Source: Gemmatimonadota bacterium
Lineage (GTDB): Bacteria > Gemmatimonadota > Gemmatimonadetes > Gemmatimonadales > GWC2-71-9
Length of the DNA: 44,374 nucleotides
NCBI GenBank assembly: GCA_003222155.1
Contig: QHUU01000069.1
Span: forward strand, 1-44,374
Direction of reading: 5' to 3'
The translations under genes and the position numbers were made by a program. The notes under the pieces are model-generated. The model made no database searches, was not told where the DNA came from, and saw only the letters and a list, made by a program, of their open reading frames with translations. Of this stretch, positions 2,209 through 34,647 are shown one piece after another (within the stretch, counting starts at the first letter, position 1; the number at the start of each line of letters is the position of its first letter).

Positions 2209-3615
2209 ATGCGTCGCGATCTGATGACCGTGGTCCTGGCCGGCGCAGTCCTCGCGACCGGCGCCGCGGCTCAGGATGGTCTGTCGCCCGCCGACCGCGG
2301 CCTCGCCCGTGAGGTCTTCAAGCAGCTGATCGAGATCAACACGACGGACTCGCTCGGCAACACGCCGCGCGCCGCGCGCGCCATGGCCCAACGGCTGCTC
2401 GCCGCCGGCTTTCCCGCGGCCGACGTGCGCGTGCTGATCGGTCCCGACAGTGCGCACGGAAATCTGGTGGCGCGCTACCGCGGCACGGGGACGGGGGGCC
2501 GCCCGATCGTCGTGTTCGCGCACCTGGACGTCGTGCCCGCGCGTCGCACCGACTGGTCCGTGGATCCGTTCACCTTCCTCGAGAAGGACGGCTACTTCTA
2601 CGGCCGCGGCACGACCGACGACAAGGTGGGAGATGTGATCCTGGTCGTGGACTTCATCCGGCTCAAGCGGGCGGGGTTCCGGCCCACGCGCGATCTCATT
2701 CTCGTGCTCACGGGCGACGAGGAGACGGCGGGCAGTTGCATCGCGTGGCTCGTGGTCAAGCATCGCGACCTGGTCGACGCGGAGTTCGCGTTGAACACGG
2801 ACGCGGGCGGCGGTGTGCTGCGCGACGGCCGCCGGGTCATGTTCACGGTGCAGGCGAGCGAGAAAGTGTACGCGACCTACGCCCTCGAAGCCGCGGACAA
2901 GGGAGGGCACAGCTCGCTCCCGCGGCCCGGCGACAATCCCATCTACCGCGTCGCCGCTGCGTTGCAGCACCTCTCGGATTACCAGTTCCCCGTACAGCTG
3001 AACGAGGTGTCGCGCGCCTTCTTCGAGCGCTCCGCCGCGATCGAAACGGGCCAGCTCGCGGACGACATGCGCGGTGTCCTCAAGGATCCGCCGGACCCGG
3101 CCGCGGTGACGCGCCTGTCTGCCGTGCCGTTCTATAATTCCAAGCTCCGGACCACCTGCGTGGCGACGATGCTGGCGGCGGGACACGCCGAGAACGCGCT
3201 GCCGCAGGCGGCGCGGGCGACGGTCAACTGCCGTATCCTCCCGGGGGAGCCGCCGGCGGGCGTCGAGGCGACGCTGCGTCGCCTCGCGGCCGACGACCGC
3301 ATCACCGTCAGCACCGTCTACACCCCCATCCCGAGCCCGCCCTCGCCGCTCACGCCCGCGATCATGGGTCCGCTCGAGCGGCTCGTGGCGGACCAGTTTC
3401 CCGGTGTGCCCATCGTGCCGGTGATGGAAGCGGGCGCCACCGACGGGTTGTTCCTGCGCAACGCGGGGATCCCGACCTACGGCGTGTCGGCGGTGTTCGA
3501 GGATCCGAACGACATCCGGGCACACGGCCGCGACGAGCGGATCGGCGTGCAGAGCTTCTACGACGCGCTGGAGTTCTGGCATCGGATGCTGCGGGCGTTT
3601 GCGTCGCAGCAGTAG
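2209..3615 (+). CDS. Secreted M20-family metallopeptidase/amidohydrolase
   Basis: A 468-aa zinc hydrolase of the M20/M25/M40 fold, which cleaves peptides or N-acyl amino acids. A signal peptide is visible (basic start, hydrophobic run, cleavage near GAAAQ, about residue 22). Metal and catalytic motifs are in the expected order: AHLDVVP with His105/Asp107, GRGTTDDK with the bridging Asp near 137, GDEETAGS with Glu171/Glu172, and NTDAGGG near 197. A dimerisation (lid) segment containing GGHSSLP follows. A C-terminal metal ligand is likely His in DIRAHGRDERI. Start ATG follows the previous stop with no gap. Substrate cannot be told from sequence. Export suggests nutrient peptide scavenging. Confidence 0.92.
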   Translation: MRRDLMTVVLAGAVLATGAAAQDGLSPADRGLAREVFKQLIEINTTDSLGNTPRAARAMAQRLLAAGFPAADVRVLIGPDSAHGNLVARYRGTGTGGRPIVVFAHLDVVPARRTDWSVDPFTFLEKDGYFYGRGTTDDKVGDVILVVDFIRLKRAGFRPTRDLILVLTGDEETAGSCIAWLVVKHRDLVDAEFALNTDAGGGVLRDGRRVMFTVQASEKVYATYALEAADKGGHSSLPRPGDNPIYRVAAALQHLSDYQFPVQLNEVSRAFFERSAAIETGQLADDMRGVLKDPPDPAAVTRLSAVPFYNSKLRTTCVATMLAAGHAENALPQAARATVNCRILPGEPPAGVEATLRRLAADDRITVSTVYTPIPSPPSPLTPAIMGPLERLVADQFPGVPIVPVMEAGATDGLFLRNAGIPTYGVSAVFEDPNDIRAHGRDERIGVQSFYDALEFWHRMLRAFASQQ

Positions 3616-3629
3616 ATTTGCGGGACCAA

Positions 3630-3723
3630 GGGGGCGGATCGGGCCTGGTGGCTCGAGCGGTCTTCAAAACCGTCTAGGGCTCGATTGAGCCTTGGTAGGT
3701 TCGATTCCTACACGCTCCCGCCA
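3630..3723 (+). tRNA. selC: tRNA-Sec (anticodon TCA), selC
   Basis: Folding by eye gives the diagnostic selenocysteine tRNA shape. The acceptor is 8 nt long (3630-3637 with 3712-3719; 7 pairs including one G-U, plus a terminal G/A mismatch). The D stem is 6 bp (3640-3645 with 3650-3655) around a 4-nt loop. The anticodon stem 3657-3661/3669-3673 carries TCA at 3664-3666. A long variable arm (3676-3682 pairs with 3687-3693) and a normal T arm (3695-3711, loop TTCGATT) follow. Discriminator G and an encoded CCA end it at 3723. TCA would read UGA, so the genome probably encodes SelA/SelB and at least one selenoprotein; none is visible in this window. It lies 14 bases after the M20 peptidase stop. 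Confidence 0.96.
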
Positions 3724-6056: not shown

Positions 6057-6164
6057 ATGCAACTGGTCTTCGCGCTTCCGCTGCTGCTGCTGGTCCTGCT
6101 CCTGGTCCTTATTGGACGACCCGGGGATCGCGGCGCGCTGGCCAGTATCGACTTGCAAGGCTGA
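6057..6164 (+). CDS. leuL: Leader peptide for leu/ilv attenuation (35 aa)
   Basis: An ATG-to-TGA frame of 35 codons just upstream of leuA. Residues 9-19 read LLLLVLLLVLI, eleven consecutive codons for exactly the three amino acids made by the operon (bases 6081-6113), with more Leu/Val at 3, 4 and 7. No Shine-Dalgarno precedes it; with the promoter at 6021-6049 the ATG is at about +1, so translation would be leaderless. It is followed by an intrinsic terminator at 6187-6223, and part of its coding sequence (6123-6135) can pair with the terminator's 5' arm. By analogy with LeuL/IvbL leaders, ribosomes stalled for lack of charged tRNA would favour antitermination. The alternative is a small membrane peptide, because the same run is hydrophobic. 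The name is by function, not homology. Confidence 0.75.
   Translation: MQLVFALPLLLLVLLLVLIGRPGDRGALASIDLQG
6123..6135 (+). promoter_or_regulatory. Antiterminator arm of the leu/ilv attenuator
   Basis: GGGGATCGCGGCG inside the leader ORF is the reverse complement of terminator bases 6188-6201 except for one bulged G. It can therefore form a 13-bp helix that destroys the terminator's 5' arm. It begins 10 bases after the Leu/Val/Ile codon run, where it stays free when a ribosome stalls early in the run and is covered when the ribosome moves on. Confidence 0.65.
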
Positions 6165-6186
6165 ACCGAGTAGGACACGCAAGCAG

Positions 6187-6223
6187 ACGCCGCGGATCCC
6201 CGAGATCCGCGGCGTTTTGTTTT
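6187..6223 (+). terminator. Intrinsic terminator/attenuator upstream of leuA
   Basis: A perfect 12-bp stem (6187-6198 with 6204-6215), 5-base loop CCCGA, then TTTTGTTTT (6215-6223). It sits between the leader ORF stop and leuA ATG, 23 bases before the leuA start. A full terminator inside an operon leader, with a competing upstream pairing partner, is the signature of transcription attenuation. Confidence 0.9.
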
Positions 6224-6246
6224 CACACGGCCAGAGGGGAGCGCTC

Positions 6247-7800
<1,554 letters not shown>

Positions 7801-7801
7801 C

Positions 7802-9493
7802 GTGGGCGAGCTCCTGTCGGGCGCGCAGATCCTCTGCCGCGTCCTGGTCGAGGAAGGCGTGGACACGATCTGGGGCTATCCCGGAGGCGCGATCATGCCG
7901 TTCTACCATGCGCTCCCGGACGTCCCCGAGATCCGTCATATCCTGGTGCGGCACGAGCAAGCGGCGGCGCACGCGGCGGACGGCTACGCGCGGGCCACCG
8001 GCCGGATCGGCGTCTGCGTCGCGACCTCGGGGCCCGGCGCCACCAACCTGGTCACCGGTCTCGCCACGGCGCAGATGGACTCGTCGCCCGTGGTCGCCAT
8101 CACCGGGCAGGTGCCGCGCGCCATGCTGGGTCGCGATGCGTTCCAGGAGACGGACGTGGTGGGGATCACCCTGCCCATTACGAAGCACAGCTGCCTGGTC
8201 GCCGACGTCACCGAGCTGGCCGACCGCATGCGGGAGGCGATCGCCATCGCGCGCGAGGGCCGGCCCGGACCGGTGCTGGTCGACGTGCCCAAAGACGTGC
8301 AGAACCAGAAGACGGAATACCGAGAGCCCGATCCCCGACTGACCCCGGGCGCAAGCCCGGGGTCCCCGGAGGCCCTGGCCGATCCGGTGTCGCAGGCCGC
8401 CCGCCTCATCGCCGCCGCCGAGCGCCCGCTCCTCATGGTCGGCCACGGCGTGATCTTGAGCGGCGCGTACGACGCCGTCCGCCAGCTCGCGGAGAAGACG
8501 GGCATGCCGGTGATCACGACGCTGCTCGGCATCAGCGCGCTCCCGGCCTCGCATCCGCTCCACCTCGGAATGCCGGGGATGCACGGCGAGGTGCACGTCA
8601 ACCGCGCCATCCAGCGCGCCGACGTGATCGTCGGCATCGGGCTGCGGTTCGACGATCGCGTGACGGGCAATACCAAAGGCTTCGCGCCGCGTGCCAAGAT
8701 CGTACACGTGGATTTGGACGCCTCGGAGATCGGTAAGAACGTGCCGGTGGCCCTCGCACTGGTCGGCGACGCGCGCAGCGTGACGGAGCGGCTGGTCACG
8801 GCCGTCGCGCCGCGCGGCTGCGAGGCCTGGCTCGCCGAGATCCTCGGCTGGGCCCGGCCGCCCGCCGATAGCTACCGCGGCGATCTCTCGCCCGACGCCA
8901 TCGTCGCCGGAATCCACGCCGCCGCCCACGACCGCTGCACCATCGTCACCGACGTGGGCCAGCACCAGATGTGGGTCGCGAAGCTCTATCCTTACGGCCG
9001 GCCCAACACGCACATTACCTCGGGGGGGTTGGGCACGATGGGCTTCGCCGTGCCCGCCGCGATGGGCGTCAAGCTCGCGCGCCCGCGTGAAGATGTCTGG
9101 GCGATCTCCGGGGATGGCGGGTTCCAGATGAACATGCAGGAGATCGCGACCATGGTGCAGGAGCGCATTCCGGTGAAGCTCGCTGTCTTCAACAACGGCT
9201 ACCTGGGGATGGTGCGGCAATGGCAGCAGTTCTTCCACGGTAAGCGCTACTCCGCCACGCCCATCTGGAGTCCCGACTACGTGAAGCTGGCGGCGGCATA
9301 CGGCATCCCCGGATGGCGCGTGGACAGCGCGAGCGAGCTCGAGCCGGTCCTGGCGCGCGCCAGCGTGGCCGAAGGGCCGGTGCTGGTGGAATTCGTGATC
9401 GAGCAGGAAGCGAACGTGTTCCCGATGATCCCGCCCGGCGCGACACTGTCCGAGCCGATCGAAGCGGAGCCGGCGGTCGGGGTGAGAGAGTGA
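7802..9493 (+). CDS. ilvB: Acetolactate synthase large (catalytic) subunit
   Basis: The TPP enzyme that makes 2-acetolactate or 2-aceto-2-hydroxybutyrate, the shared first step for Val/Leu and Ile. 563 aa from GTG 7802. WGYPGGAIMPFY near residue 20 and RHEQAAAHAADGYAR, with the catalytic Glu near 50, open the pyrimidine-binding domain. GDGGFQMNMQE near 440 with the later NNGYLGMVRQW is the TPP/Mg binding motif. A GC palindrome (8339-8364) encodes residues of about LTPGASPGSP (180-188) at the linker before the central domain, an unusual in-frame insertion at a tolerant site. It is coupled to the small subunit by a GTGA overlap. Confidence 0.97.
   Translation: MGELLSGAQILCRVLVEEGVDTIWGYPGGAIMPFYHALPDVPEIRHILVRHEQAAAHAADGYARATGRIGVCVATSGPGATNLVTGLATAQMDSSPVVAITGQVPRAMLGRDAFQETDVVGITLPITKHSCLVADVTELADRMREAIAIAREGRPGPVLVDVPKDVQNQKTEYREPDPRLTPGASPGSPEALADPVSQAARLIAAAERPLLMVGHGVILSGAYDAVRQLAEKTGMPVITTLLGISALPASHPLHLGMPGMHGEVHVNRAIQRADVIVGIGLRFDDRVTGNTKGFAPRAKIVHVDLDASEIGKNVPVALALVGDARSVTERLVTAVAPRGCEAWLAEILGWARPPADSYRGDLSPDAIVAGIHAAAHDRCTIVTDVGQHQMWVAKLYPYGRPNTHITSGGLGTMGFAVPAAMGVKLARPREDVWAISGDGGFQMNMQEIATMVQERIPVKLAVFNNGYLGMVRQWQQFFHGKRYSATPIWSPDYVKLAAAYGIPGWRVDSASELEPVLARASVAEGPVLVEFVIEQEANVFPMIPPGATLSEPIEAEPAVGVRE
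8339..8364. repeat. GC-rich palindromic repeat, copy 1 (inside ilvB)
   Basis: GACCCCGGGC, then GCAA, then GCCCGGGGTC: a perfect 10-bp stem with a 4-base loop (8341-8364), preceded by CT. A second copy with only two differences over the shared core lies at 22751-22775. Here it falls inside the ilvB coding sequence and is translated in frame. Confidence 0.75.
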
Positions 9494-9738
9494 GCGTCCC
9501 GATGGCGTACGCGCTGTCTCTCTCTGTGGACCAGGATCTGCTCGCGCTGGGCCGGGCGGTCGGCGAGCTGCGACGCCGCAACCTCAAAGTGTCGGCCATC
9601 ACGCTCGGCCCCGGCGCCGACGCGGGCCAGGCCCGGCTCACGGTGATCGTGGATGCCGACGAAGGCACGGTGGAGATGGCGATGCGAAAGCTGCTGAAGG
9701 TGTCGGGCGTGCGCGGCGCGACGCGCGAGCCACAATAA
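9490..9738 (+). CDS. ilvN: Acetolactate synthase small (regulatory) subunit, ACT domain
   Basis: An 82-aa protein consisting essentially of one ACT domain, with an alternating beta pattern (YALSLSVDQDLLALGRAVGELRRRNLKVSAITLG split by a helix). It activates the large subunit and mediates feedback by branched-chain amino acids. At this length it resembles the short IlvM/IlvN type rather than the roughly 160-aa IlvH type, so the second domain of IlvH is absent. Start GTG 9490 gives a GTGA overlap with the ilvB stop; ATG 9502 is a possible alternative. ilvC begins 24 bases after the stop. Confidence 0.88.
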   Translation: MSVPMAYALSLSVDQDLLALGRAVGELRRRNLKVSAITLGPGADAGQARLTVIVDADEGTVEMAMRKLLKVSGVRGATREPQ

Positions 9739-9762
9739 CCTCAAACAACTCGAGAGCGACCA

Positions 9763-10851
9763 ATGCCTGGAACCTCCTCACTGCGGGTGTACTACGACGC
9801 GGACGCCGACCTCGGACGCCTGCGCGGGCGCACCGTCGCGATCATCGGTTACGGCAGCCAGGGGCACGCTCACGCGCTCAACTTGCGCGAGAGCGGTGTC
9901 ACCGTCATCGTCGGCTTGCGGCCCGGCGGCGCCTCGTGGGCCCGCGCCGCGGCGGAAAAGCTCGATGTCCGCCCGGTGGCGGACGCCGCCCGCGCCGCGA
10001 ACTTCATCATGATGCTCGTTCCCGACCAGCATGGACGCGCCGTGTACGAGCAGGACGTGGCCGCGGGCGTAGTCCCCGGCAAGACCCTGATGTTCGCCCA
10101 CGGGTTCAACGTCCACTTCAAGCAGATCGTCCCGCCCGCGGGCGTGGACGTCTCGATGGTGGCTCCCAAGTCTCCCGGGCATCTCGTGCGCAGCGAATTC
10201 CAGGCGGGGCGGGGTGTACCGGCCCTCGTCGCGGTCGAGCGCGACGCGAGCGGCCACGCGCTCGCCGACGCACTCGCGTATGCGGCGGGGATCGGTTGCA
10301 CCCGCGCGGGCGTGCTGCCCACCACGTTCCGCGAGGAGACCGAGAGTGACCTGTTCGGGGAGCAGGTGGTGCTGTGCGGCGGGGTCACGGCGCTCATCAA
10401 GGCGGGCTTCGAGACGCTCGTCGCGGCGGGCTATGCCCCCGAGCTCGCCTACTTCGAGTGCCTGCACGAGCTGAAGCTGATCGTGGACCTGATGTACCGC
10501 GGCGGCATGAAGTTCATGCGCTACTCGATCTCGGACACGGCGGAGTACGGCGATTACACGCGCGGGCCGACGCTCGTCACGTCCGCCGTCCGCGCCCGAA
10601 TGCAGCAGATCCTGGCGGACATCCAGAGCGGCGTCTTCGCGCGGGAATGGATCGAGGAGAGCCGCCAGGGCGGCCCCAACTTCCAGCGCATGCGCCGTGA
10701 GCAGAACGACCACCTGATAGAGCGGGTAGGCGCGACGCTGCGCGCCATGATGCCGTGGTCCGAAGAAGGCAGGGCTTCGGGACTCGGGACTCGGGGCTCG
10801 GAGACGCCATCCGAATCCCGAACCCCGAGGCCCGAACCCCAGCGGGCATGA
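9763..10851 (+). CDS. ilvC: Ketol-acid reductoisomerase, class I, with repeat-derived C-terminal tail
   Basis: Rearranges and reduces acetolactate with NAD(P)H to the dihydroxy acid of Val/Leu/Ile synthesis. 362 aa. Rossmann motif [13 protein letters not shown] near residue 30, [11 protein letters not shown] near 137, [19 protein letters not shown] near 189 with Mg-binding acidic residues, and [17 protein letters not shown] near 232. The enzyme core ends near residue 337, the usual length for class I. The last 25 residues ([15 protein letters not shown] and on) are encoded by a heptad inverted repeat at 10776-10840, so the tail is probably a repeat insertion that moved the stop codon. The stop overlaps the leuC ATG (ATGA). 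Confidence 0.97.
10776..10840. repeat. Heptad inverted repeat at the ilvC 3' end
   Basis: Left arm of four 7-base units (TTCGGGA, CTCGGGA, CTCGGGG, CTCGGAG; 10776-10803), a 7-base centre, and a right arm of four units (CCGAATC, CCGAACC, CCGAGGC, CCGAACC; 10811-10838). Read in reverse complement, the right arm matches the left at about 21 of 26 positions. The whole repeat is inside ilvC and ends 8 bases before the leuC ATG. Confidence 0.75.
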
Positions 10852-12257
10852 CCCCCCGCACCCTGTTCGCGAAGATCTGGGACGCGCACGTCGTCCACCG
10901 GCTCCCCCTCCCCGACGGGCCGGAGCTCCTGTACGTGGACCTGCATCTGGTCCACGAGGTGACTTCACCCCAGGCGTTCGAGGGGTTGCGGCTGGCGGGA
11001 CGCCGGGTGCGTCGGCCCGAGCTGACGGTTGCGACCGCGGACCACAACGTGCCGACCGGTGATCGCGCCCTTCCGATCACGGACGCCCTGGCGGCCCGGC
11101 AGGTCGGGGCGCTCGCGGCGAACGCGCGCGAGTTCGGTATCGAGCTGTTCGACCTCGCATCCCCTCGCCAGGGCATCGTGCACGTCATCGGCCCCGAGCT
11201 GGGCCTCACGCAGCCGGGGATGGTGATCGTGTGCGGCGATTCGCACACGTCCACGCACGGCGCGTTCGGGGCGCTCGCCTTCGGCATCGGGACGAGCGAG
11301 GTCGAGCACGTGCTCGCGACCCAGTGCCTCGTCGTCATGCGACCCAAGACCATGGAGGTCCGATTCGAGGGGGCGCCGGCCTCCGGAGTCACCGCCAAGG
11401 ACCTGATCCTCGCGTTGATCGGGCGCATCGGGACGGCGGGGGCGACCGGTCACGTGATCGAGTACACGGGCGAGGCGATCCGCGGGCTCTCGATGGAGGG
11501 CCGCATGACGGTCTGCAACATGTCGATCGAAGCGGGCGCCCGGGCCGGGATGATCGCGCCCGACGACGCCAGCTTCGCCTACCTTGCCGGGCGCCCGCGC
11601 GCGCCCGAGGGAGAGCGGTTCACCCGGGCGGTCGCGCGCTGGCGCCGCCTGAAGAGCGACGACGGCGCGACCTACGACGCGCGTGTGACGCTGGACGCGG
11701 CGAGGGTCGGGCCGCAGGTGACCTGGGGGACGAACCCCGGTATGGTGGCGGACATCACGGCGCGCGTCCCCGACCCGGCGGGCTTCGCTTCGGCAGCCGA
11801 GCGGCAGGCGGTGGAGCGCGCGCTCGCGTACATGGACCTGCAGCCCGGTACGCCGCTCGAGGGCCTCCCCATCGATCGTGTGTTTCTCGGCTCCTGCACT
11901 AACGCACGGATCGAGGATCTGCGGAGTGCGGCCAGGGTGGTGCGGGGTCGACGCGTGGCAGCGGGCGTTCGCGCGCTGGTCGTGCCGGGCTCCCAGCAGG
12001 TCAAAGCGCAGGCGGAAGCCGAGGGACTCGACCGGGTGTTCCGCGAGGCGGGGTTCGAGTGGCGTAATTCGGGCTGCTCGATGTGCCTCGGCATGAACCC
12101 GGACATCCTGGCGAGCGGTGAGCGCTGCGCGGCGACGTCGAACCGCAACTTCGAAGGCCGCCAGGGGCGTGGCGGCCGTACCCACCTGATGAGTCCCGCC
12201 ATGGCGGCCGCCGCCGGGATCGCCGGGCACCTGGTCGACATCCGGAGGTGGGCGTGA
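10848..12257 (+). CDS. leuC: 3-isopropylmalate dehydratase large subunit
   Basis: The [4Fe-4S] aconitase-family subunit that, with LeuD, isomerises 2- to 3-isopropylmalate. 469 aa. [15 protein letters not shown] near residue 126, then the cluster cysteines: [11 protein letters not shown] near 349 and [13 protein letters not shown] near 409 (two Cys). [10 protein letters not shown] near 430 is the typical substrate-binding segment. ATG 10848 overlaps the ilvC stop and gives the normal N-terminus [14 protein letters not shown]; longer in-frame starts would only read the repeat. GGAGGTG just before the leuC stop serves as ribosome site for leuD. Confidence 0.98.
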
Positions 12258-12937
12258 CGCCCTTCGTCCGTCACGCCGGCCGGGTCGCGGCGTTGCCGCG
12301 CGTCAACGTCGACACCGACCAGATCGTGCCGAAGCAGTTTCTCAAGCGCATCGAGCGCACCGGGTTTGCACCGGTTCTGTTCCACGACTGGCGCTACCGC
12401 GCCGACGGCTCCCCCGACCCCGCGTTCGAGTTGAATCAGCCGGCCGCCGCGGGGGCGAGCATTCTGCTCGCGGGCGCGAACTTCGGCTGCGGCTCGTCGC
12501 GCGAGCACGCCGTGTGGGCGCTGCGCGAGCACGGTCTCCGCGTCGTCATCGCGGAGTCGTTCGCCGACATCTTCTACGCGAACTGCTGCCAGAACGGGCT
12601 CCTCGCCGTGCGCCTGGTGACGGGGGAAATCGCCGAGCTGTTCGCCCGCCACACGCGCGCCGCGGGCCGCTACGATGTGGTCGTCGATCTCGAGGCCCAG
12701 ACCGTGGTCGACGACGCGGGCTTCCACGCCGCGTTCAGCATCGCCTCCTATCATCGCGAGATGCTGCTCCGCGGGCTCGACGAGATCGGGCGTACACTCC
12801 TCGCGGAAGGTCAGATTGCGGCGTTCGAACGCGAAAGGTGGAACGCGGAAGGCGGAACAGCAGGGCGGGCGTCGGACCTCGCTGTTCCGCGTTCCGACTT
12901 CCGCGTTCCGCGTTCAGGGGAGGGAGACGTAGCATGA
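12254..12937 (+). CDS. leuD: 3-isopropylmalate dehydratase small subunit, with repeat-derived C-terminal tail
   Basis: The swivel-domain partner of LeuC. 227 aa, where about 190-200 is usual. [15 protein letters not shown] near residue 16 and [17 protein letters not shown] near 76 are the family signatures. From about residue 191 to the end the sequence ([17 protein letters not shown] and on) is encoded by a heptad inverted repeat at 12827-12915, so the extra tail is probably not functional LeuD sequence. GTG 12254 forms a GTGA overlap with leuC, with GGAGGTG 3-9 bases upstream. The stop overlaps the leuB ATG. Confidence 0.96.
12827..12915. repeat. Heptad inverted repeat at the leuD 3' end (GAACGCG family)
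   Basis: Each arm holds five 7-base units of consensus GAACGCG: left 12827-12861, right 12881-12915, with a 19-base centre. About 29 of 35 positions pair. In reverse complement, 32 bases of the right arm are identical to the left arm of the copy at 36279-36357, 23 kb away, so this is a true dispersed family. It is wholly inside leuD and directly precedes the leuB ribosome site. Confidence 0.85.
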
Positions 12938-14034
12938 AGGAGTACCAGATCGCGGTCCTCCCGGGCGACGGGATCGGGCCGGAAGTCACGGGCGAAGCGG
13001 TGCGCGTGCTGCAGGCCGCGGGCGAGCGATTCGGACTCCAGTTCGCGCTGCAGGATTACGCCGTGGGGGCGGCCGGCGTCGCGGCGGCGGGCGATCCCCT
13101 GCCGCCCGAGACGCGGGCCGCCGTCGTGAAGGCGGACGCGGTGCTGCTGGGCGCCGTGGGCGATCCGTCGCTCGATCATGCGCCCCGACGGATGCGGCCC
13201 GAATCCGGTCTGCTCGCCCTGCGCGGCCTGCTCGGCGTGTACGCGAACCTGCGGCCCGTGGCGACCAACCCGGCGCTCGCCTTCTGCTCGCCCTTGAAGC
13301 CCGAGCACCTCGCGGGCGTGGACATCCTCATCGTGCGCGAGCTCGTCGGGGGGTTGTACTACGGCGAGCCCCGCGGCCGGGAGGATGGCGGGCGGGCGGC
13401 GGTGAATACGCTGCGCTACACCGAGGCCGAAGTCGAGCGTGTGGCCCGCGTGGCGCTCGCCGCGGCCCGGACCCGGCGCCGGCGGCTGTTGTCCGTCGAC
13501 AAGGCGAACGTGCTCGAGACGTCGCAGCTGTGGCGCGAGACGGTGACGCGCGTGGCGCAGGACTATCCCGACGTCACGCTGGAGCACGCCTACGTCGACT
13601 ACGCCGCGATGCGGCTCGTCACCGACTCCGCCGGCATCGACGTCCTGCTCACGGAGAACATGTTCGGGGACATCCTGAGCGACGAGGCCGCCGTGCTCGC
13701 GGGATCGCTGGGACTGTTGCCGTCGGCGTCGCTGGGCGATGGCCCCGGCCTGTTCGAGCCGATCCACGGCTCGGCGCCGGCGCTGGCGGGCAAGGACGTG
13801 GCCAACCCCATCGGGGCGATCGCATCGGCGGCGCTGCTGCTGCGCCACGGGCTCGGGCTGGCGGAGCCCGCGGGGGCGGTGGAGCAGGCGATCGCCGCGG
13901 CGCTGGAGCAGGGGGCGCGCACGCGCGACATCGCGCGGCCCAGCGACCGCATGATCGGCACGCGCGAGATGGGTGGCTGGATCGCCGAGCTGGTGCGGTC
14001 GCCGGCGAAACGGCCGCTTTCACTGGTCAGATAA
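12934..14034 (+). CDS. leuB: 3-isopropylmalate dehydrogenase
   Basis: Oxidises and decarboxylates 3-isopropylmalate with NAD, the last specific leucine step before transamination. 366 aa. LPGDGIGPEV near residue 7, RELVGGLYYGEPRG near 132, DKANVLETSQLWRE near 189, VDYAAMRLV near 217, GDILSDEAAVLAGSLG near 245 and EPIHGSAPALAGKDVANP near 274 cover substrate, metal and NAD sites. ATG 12934 overlaps the leuD stop, with AGGGAGA upstream. Last gene of the plus-strand operon; a hairpin at 14037-14063 separates it from convergent ilvD. Confidence 0.98.
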   Translation: MKEYQIAVLPGDGIGPEVTGEAVRVLQAAGERFGLQFALQDYAVGAAGVAAAGDPLPPETRAAVVKADAVLLGAVGDPSLDHAPRRMRPESGLLALRGLLGVYANLRPVATNPALAFCSPLKPEHLAGVDILIVRELVGGLYYGEPRGREDGGRAAVNTLRYTEAEVERVARVALAAARTRRRRLLSVDKANVLETSQLWRETVTRVAQDYPDVTLEHAYVDYAAMRLVTDSAGIDVLLTENMFGDILSDEAAVLAGSLGLLPSASLGDGPGLFEPIHGSAPALAGKDVANPIGAIASAALLLRHGLGLAEPAGAVEQAIAAALEQGARTRDIARPSDRMIGTREMGGWIAELVRSPAKRPLSLVR

Positions 14035-14063: not shown

Positions 14064-15743
14064 TCAGGGGGTGAGGTCGGTTACCGCCCCCAGGCTCGCG
14101 CTCGACACCAGCTTCGCGTACTTCGCCAGCACCCCCGTGGTGTACTTCGGCTCAGGTGGCTTCCACGCCGCGCGCCGCCGCGCGATCTCCGCGTCGGGCA
14201 GGTCCAGCTCGAGCCGCCGCCGCTCGGCGTCGATCGTGACCGGGTCTCCGTCCCGCACCAGGGCGATCGCGCCCCCCACGGCCGCTTCCGGTGCCACGTG
14301 CCCCACCACCAGGCCGTACGTCCCACCCGAGAACCGCCCGTCCGTGATGAGGCCCACCTGGTCGCCCAGCCCCGCCCCGATGATCGCCGCCGTGGGGGAG
14401 AGCATCTCGCGCATCCCCGGTCCCCCCTTGGGACCCTCGTACCGGATCACGAGCACGTCTCCCGGCTTGATGCGGCCCGCGAGGATCGCGGCGAGCGAGT
14501 CCTCTTCGCAGTCGAACACGCGCGCCGGGCCCGTCATCTTCAGGTGCTTGATCCCGGTGATCTTCGCGACCGCGCCTTCGGACGCCAGGTTGCCGCGCAG
14601 CACGGCGAGATGTCCCTGCGGGTAGAGCGGCCGACCCCACGGCCGGATCACGTCCTGGTCACGGCGCGGCTCCTCCGGCACGTCCCGGAGCACCTCGGCC
14701 ACGCTCTGCCCGGACACGGTGGCCGCGTCGCCGTGCAGCGCACCATGCGCCAGCAGGATCTTCATTACTTGGGGGACGCCACCCGCCGCGTGCAGGTCGG
14801 TCGTCACGAACCGGCCCGAGGGCTTCAAGTCGCACAGCACCGGCACGCGCCCCCTGAGCGTCTCGAAATCGTCGAGCGCGAGCCGCACGCCTGCGGCTCG
14901 CGCGATGGCGAGCAGGTGCAGCACCGCATTGGTCGAGCCGCCCAGCGCCATGACGACGGCGATGGCGTTCTCGAACGCCGCGCGTGTGAGGATCGCCCGC
15001 GGGCGCCGGTCGTGGTGTACCGCCTCCACGAGCACCTCGGCGGAGCGCGCGGCGCTGTCGCCCTTCTCGCCGTCCTCGGCGGCCATGGTCGACGAATACG
15101 GCAGACTCATCCCCATTGCCTCGATGGCCGACGACATCGTGTTCGCCGTGAACATGCCGCCGCACGCGCCCGCGCCCGGGCAGGCCCGGCGCTCCACCTC
15201 CAGCAGGTCCGCCTCGGAGAGTTTGCGCGCGCTGTACTGGCCGACCGCCTCGAACGCGCTCACGACCGTCAGGTCCTGTCCCTTGTAATGGCCCGGCTTG
15301 ATGGTGCCGCCGTACACGAACACCGCCGGGATGTCCATGCGCGCGATCGCGATCAGCGCCCCCGGCATGTTCTTGTCGCACCCCCCCACGGCGAGCACGC
15401 CGTCCACGGACTGCGCGTTGCACACGGTTTCGATCGAGTCGGCGATCACCTCGCGCGACACGAGGGAGTACTTCATTCCCTCGGTGCCCATGGAGATGCC
15501 GTCGCTTACCGTGATCGTCCCGAAGGTCTGCGGCATGCCGCCCGCGGCGCGCACGGCTGCCTCGGCGCGCAGCGCCAGGTCGTTGAGCTTGGCGTTGCAG
15601 GGCGTGATCGTGCTGTGCGCGTTCGCGATGCCGATGATCGGCTTGGTGAAGTCCTGATCCCCGAACCCGACGGCGCGCAGCATCGCGCGGTTGGGCGTGC
15701 GTTCCACACCCGCGGTAATCGTGTGGCTCCGGAGGGGGCTCAT
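14064..15743 (-). CDS. ilvD: Dihydroxy-acid dehydratase
   Basis: Dehydrates the dihydroxy acids made by IlvC to 2-oxo acids for Val, Leu and Ile. 559 aa, normal length. Fe-S/Mg motifs are CNAKLNDLA near residue 49, [13 protein letters not shown] near 118, and [16 protein letters not shown] near 190. [19 protein letters not shown] near 468 is the C-terminal signature. ATG at 15743 overlaps the thrC stop, so the gene ends the thrB-thrA-thrC-ilvD operon. It is therefore outside the attenuated leu/ilv operon and converges on it. This links isoleucine synthesis to threonine supply. Confidence 0.98.
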
Positions 15744-20524: not shown

Positions 20525-20640
20525 TCGCTTTTTAGCACCTTGTTTAACGTGGCGGCAATACGCGGCAAAGCACCACGAGCACTGCGGTTGTGTGTATGTT
20601 CAATACTCGCCGCAGGCGTCCGGTGCGTCAAGGAGCAGCG

Positions 20641-34573: not shown

Positions 34574-34647
34574 CGGGGCGTAGCGCAGCCCGGTAGCGCG
34601 TCTGGTTTGGGACCAGAAGGTCCCGGGTTCAAATCCCGGCGCCCCGA
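34574..34647 (+). tRNA. tRNA-Pro (anticodon TGG)
   Basis: A standard cloverleaf: perfect 7-bp acceptor CGGGGCG/CGCCCCG (34574-34580, 34640-34646), D stem GCGC/GCGC, anticodon stem TCTGG/CCAGA with loop TTTGGGA (TGG at 34608-34610), T arm CCGGG-TTCAAAT-CCCGG. Discriminator A. CCA is not encoded, unlike the selC copy. Confidence 0.97.

Follow-up and report, generated by a model that had tools for sequence, protein, structure and literature searches.

The window analyzed here, which is one whole contig (C12) of 44,374 nucleotides, belongs to a metagenome-assembled draft genome of a soil member of the Gemmatimonadota (3.45 Mb in 130 contigs, ~95% complete, 2.3% estimated contamination). On its plus strand, the window carries a selenocysteine tRNA (tRNA-Sec) gene just downstream of a peptidase gene, with the following features.

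2209-3615 (+): M20-family peptidase (Pfam), ending 14 nt before the tRNA
3630-3723 (+): tRNA-Sec gene (selC) with TCA anticodon, G73 and encoded CCA (ARAGORN, RF01852, predicted fold)
3630-3637 (+): 5' acceptor strand GGGGGCGG; its base 8 stands opposite A in a non-standard G·A layer
3640-3655 (+): D arm with a 6-bp stem (CGGGCC/GGCTCG) and a 4-nt loop, TGGT (sequence, Rfam alignment)
3664-3666 (+): anticodon TCA, decoding UGA, from position 35 of the gene (sequence, ARAGORN)
3712-3719 (+): 3' acceptor strand ACGCTCCC, beginning with the A that stands opposite the eighth base, G, of the 5' strand
3720-3723 (+): discriminator G73 and encoded CCA

ARAGORN reads the gene as tRNA-SeC with anticodon tca, and the Rfam family of bacterial tRNA-Sec, RF01852, matches it at full length (3630-3719, model positions 1-91) with 80.9 bits (E 3e-15) relative to a gathering score of 47 bits; together, these two results bear out the identity proposed in the first-pass annotation. 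A whole-genome search returned this single RF01852 match above the cut-off, with the runner-up at 44.5 bits, and the lower-scoring matches that ARAGORN could read are ordinary tRNAs (e.g., Ser, Leu). The traits typical of RF01852 are present, namely the UCA anticodon, the 6-bp D stem with a 4-nt loop, the long variable arm and G73, and the predicted fold is a cloverleaf of -48.4 kcal/mol (z = -3.9) that none of 200 shuffled sequences equaled. The D arm is also a feature that SelA recognizes (PMC7609411). Judging from the sequence, we are close to certain that positions 3630-3723 represent a functional chromosomal selC gene, that is, an ordinary bacterial selC and a known kind of gene, the product of which would insert selenocysteine (Sec) at UGA codons of host genes. 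We infer the biochemical steps involved, the function of SECIS elements and the role of the encoded CCA in easing maturation from established knowledge.

Neighboring genes in the window

The close spacing raises the question of whether a working tRNA-Sec could be functionally coupled to one of its neighbors, either the upstream M20 peptidase or fhs, located 2.4 kb away. The 14 nt between the peptidase stop codon and the tRNA make read-through transcription likely, and the two genes are possibly co-transcribed. However, the peptidase lies beside tRNA-Sec in only 4 of the 29 other genomes of the order that were examined (some contigs end nearby). The adjacency persists in part of the genus and in one genome of a sister genus; other members of the same genus have no peptidase at this place. 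The peptidase, which shares 80-94% identity with proteins from "Gemmatimonadetes" metagenome-assembled genomes of soil, is also found without the tRNA in relatives, where the adjacency was lost and neither gene was. Based on this poor adjacency, we rejected a functional link and do not regard the peptidase as a functional partner. The gene fhs, in turn, encodes formate-tetrahydrofolate ligase, a folate enzyme, and is thus no evidence for a formate dehydrogenase, for which the first-pass annotation had taken it as a clue; the fdn gene cluster described below is on another contig. Overall, we consider coupling to either neighbor highly improbable.

Amino-acid biosynthesis genes are also found in the window. 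A plus-strand stretch (6112-14034) encodes LeuA-like, acetolactate synthase-like (TPP enzyme), KARI and isopropylmalate dehydrogenase-like proteins, all of branched-chain amino-acid synthesis, as is ilvD on the minus strand (14064-15743). In addition, a SAM_alpha (SAM-II) riboswitch match (20528-20577, minus strand; 38.3 bits vs. a gathering score of 36) is located directly upstream of minus-strand genes for homoserine kinase-like, aspartokinase/homoserine dehydrogenase and threonine synthase-like (PALP) proteins and ilvD. The SAM_alpha family is named for Alphaproteobacteria, and the host studied here lies outside this class.

Acceptor arm and encoded CCA

Of the structural features that the first-pass annotation had listed, the D stem, variable arm, TCA anticodon and CCA all stand, and the "extended acceptor" does so in part: each strand does have eight residues, but the eighth layer is not a standard pair. 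Specifically, seven standard pairs join the two acceptor strands, and the layer that adjoins the T stem is G·A. The acceptor-T stack therefore comprises 13 layers (seven standard pairs, G·A and five T-stem pairs), of which 12 are standard pairs. The gene thus resembles the 8/5 fold of bacterial tRNA-Sec (RF01852) in its TCA, 6-bp D stem with 4-nt loop, long variable arm, G73, CCA and eight residues on each acceptor strand, and differs from it by having G·A where the latter has a standard eighth pair. Acceptor-T arms of 12 bp exist in other phyla (PMC5330540), and the 7/5 (12-bp) tRNA-Sec of the Cloacimonetes type and others shares with our gene the presence of only seven standard acceptor pairs (PMC5330540); however, the 7/5 type has seven residues between the T stem and G73, whereas we counted eight here, giving a 13-layer stack with a mismatch rather than a 7/5 variant.

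The eighth layer varies among related genes. Among 70 tRNA-Sec genes of the order, a sample weighted toward the best-scoring matches, it is G·A in 48, G·G in six, A·G in one and C·A in one, and most of the others pair; a purine-purine layer is accordingly found in 55 of the 70. We evaluated whether G·A could be a novelty specific to this lineage and rejected this idea because a Clostridia tRNA-Sec, on a record of Acetoanaerobium noterae, has the same layer (others show a pair). The G·A layer is a minor variant, and no new class.

As the first-pass annotation had noted, CCA is encoded by the tRNA-Sec gene and not by the tRNA-Pro gene of the same window (34574-34647), and the difference extends well beyond this pair, since CCA is absent from all of the other tRNA genes that were checked in this genome, 30 in number and including tRNA-Pro. 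Within the order, all but two of the 70 tRNA-Sec genes read encode it, one of these two being an uncertain call. A CCA restricted to tRNA-Sec is not a new finding, having already been published together with an explanation (PMC5143459, PMC5330540): CCA is templated by 89% (PMC5143459) or 93% (PMC5330540) of bacterial tRNA-Sec genes, and the suggested cause is that the unusual acceptor arm hinders RNase P and the CCA enzyme (PMC5143459).

Selenocysteine machinery and UGA genes of the host genome

Genome searches found no selA, selB or selD match on the window's contig, and the five hits that a crude motif scan for in-frame UGA genes returned within the window do not, by inspection, resemble a known Sec site. 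The earlier statement that no sel gene or UGA-containing selenoprotein is near is thus right locally, with no sel gene and no convincing UGA gene found in the 44 kb window. Genome-wide, the search that the first-pass annotation had proposed recovered all three genes above curated cut-offs: selA (C68:40253-41578; 554.3 bits vs. 267.9), selB (C86:20786 onward; 351 bits over two stretches vs. 242) and selD (C93:86883-87815; 395.7 bits vs. 125). The tRNA-Sec looks isolated because it and the three sel genes are spread over four different contigs. Individual contigs of a binned draft such as this one could belong elsewhere; conservation in related genomes (below) argues against such misassignment.

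Selenoprotein families were searched selectively in this genome, and at least four UGA genes were recovered at known Sec/Cys sites, namely fdnG, selD and two peroxiredoxins (others may exist), in line with the expectation of unseen selenoproteins, including a formate dehydrogenase, that the tRNA had raised. The fdnG gene, on C119, encodes an FdnG-type formate dehydrogenase with TGA in NQARIUHSSSVPGLG (U, selenocysteine), at the position of the catalytic Sec (X) of E. coli FdnG (1kqf; NQARIU vs. NQARVX), and is followed by genes for a 4Fe-4S subunit, an NrfD-like membrane subunit and FdhE. A second formate dehydrogenase homolog, of the Cys type, is encoded on C101. The selD gene has its in-frame TGA within HGAGUACK. 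Two of the eight AhpC-TSA proteins of the genome contain TGA: a first peroxiredoxin (C1:48819-49256) in FYPGNNTPGUNRQ (TPGU) and a second one (C51:2888-3484), with a likely signal peptide, in FYKARTKGUTIQMHAYRD (TKGU). In both, U aligns to the peroxidatic Cys of solved peroxiredoxins. They resemble PrxU-type and PrxQ-BCP peroxiredoxins, which likewise belong to the AhpC-TSA family and have either Sec or Cys at their peroxidatic position, but score under the curated NCBIfam cut-offs for both PrxU and PrxQ.

Candidate SECIS elements could be assigned with different strength to each of these genes. In fdnG, a GGUCU loop begins at nucleotide 22 from the U of UGA, with the same letters and at the same place as in E. 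coli fdhF (the reference sequence of the latter was verified against E. coli genomes), and six pairs around the loop persist in every one of the 13 fdnG genes, one of which has exchanged C-G for G-C on both sides. The selD gene has GGUCU at nucleotide 36 within what may be a hairpin. The second peroxiredoxin carries an invariant GCGUAC/GUACGC hairpin with the loop CGUGAUCA at nucleotide 25. The stability of the candidates showed no excess over shuffled versions of the same GC-rich sequence (z from 0.1 to -1.5), so the case for SECIS function rests on position and conservation, and fdnG is the one gene with both positional and covariation support. Among the candidate SECIS elements, that of fdnG is good in terms of position and covariation, those of selD and the second peroxiredoxin are plausible, and that of the first peroxiredoxin is weak. 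Compared with E. coli fdnG/fdhF, the host gene has UGA at the homologous catalytic position and the GGUCU loop at +22, and the host differs in that the membrane subunit of its fdn cluster is NrfD-like and Sec is predicted in two peroxiredoxins as well.

These findings bear directly on whether the tRNA is a relic, or a UGA suppressor operating without Sec machinery, as the first-pass annotation would have concluded from a genome devoid of selA and selB. The lack of any sel gene in the 44 kb window could be read this way; however, selA, selB and selD are all present above curated cut-offs, as are UGA-bearing target genes, and the tRNA sequence and its CCA are conserved across the order. We consider this reading refuted and give it practically no weight; the whole Sec machinery, together with at least four apparent target genes, indicates that the tRNA-Sec is a working part and no relic. 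Similarly negligible is an identity as an allo-tRNA or selC* tRNA-Cys, which share with tRNA-Sec a long variable arm, an unusual acceptor arm and, in the case of some selC* tRNAs, a UCA anticodon (PMC7609411), given that selC* tRNA-Cys carries U73, that allo-tRNAs have 12-bp arms (8/4 or 9/3; PMC7609411), and that the gene in the window combines TCA, G73, a 6-bp D stem and a 13-layer acceptor-T arm in a genome with Sec machinery and UGA genes.

Retention and probable loss of selenocysteine in related genomes

The first-pass annotation had expected Sec use to be patchy in such phyla, but it is not rare in this group: tRNA-Sec was found in 188 of 288 genomes of the order and in all ten genomes searched of the window's own genus. 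Within the family, tRNA-Sec and selA are both found in 70 genomes, neither in 15 and only one of them in 17 (p = 8e-7, shared ancestry ignored). The apparent targets differ in how widely they occur. UGA is kept in the first peroxiredoxin in 30 and in the second in 42 of 61 family genomes, that is, in more genomes than have FdnG (18 of 61, counting only FdnG-type formate dehydrogenases, so that other Sec formate dehydrogenases may be missed); each N-terminal FdnG segment found has exactly one TGA.

The second peroxiredoxin differs between genomes with and without detected machinery. In three genomes (G075, G083 and G091), neither tRNA-Sec nor selA was found, and the gene (43-49% identity) has an unbroken frame with TGC (Cys) at the site, while 40 of the 42 genomes with the TGA form have detected machinery, the two exceptions being only 56% and 61% complete. 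The association between TGA and machinery is significant by Fisher's exact test (p = 7e-4), based on hand-compiled counts and ignoring shared ancestry. In genus g34 of the family (G075-G084), tRNA-Sec and selA were each found in only one of ten genomes (G082). The other nine include several at 96-99% completeness, a pattern that points to loss of the Sec trait within part of this genus.

Taken jointly, it is about an even bet that this lineage keeps Sec mainly for peroxiredoxins rather than for formate dehydrogenase, that Sec is replaced by Cys at the peroxidatic site wherever the machinery is lost, and that SelA and SelB must tolerate a standing purine-purine eighth layer in the tRNA-Sec acceptor arm. 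On the genomic evidence, we are nearly certain that UGA is read as Sec in a group of soil bacteria that is widespread and for the most part uncultured. Consequently, automated annotation probably truncates its formate dehydrogenase, SelD and the two peroxiredoxins. Sec use in Gemmatimonadota was apparently not named in the literature titles and abstracts or the full texts searched, a scope that lies outside subscription journals. Further, the second peroxiredoxin, with predicted Sec where the machinery is present and Cys where it is absent, would allow the chemistry of Sec and Cys to be compared cleanly in a natural setting. Apart from this comparison and the UGA decoding, the biology is ordinary.

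Finally, a cultured member of the phylum, Gemmatirosa kalamazoonensis KBS708, carries a tRNA-Sec of the same acceptor type, with CCA and with G·A as the eighth layer, although its gene is 97 nt long and plasmid-borne, compared to 94 nt for the gene in the window. The plasmid in question (plasmid 2, NZ_CP007130.1) is a replicon of 1.04 Mb, and this organism represents a possible laboratory relative.
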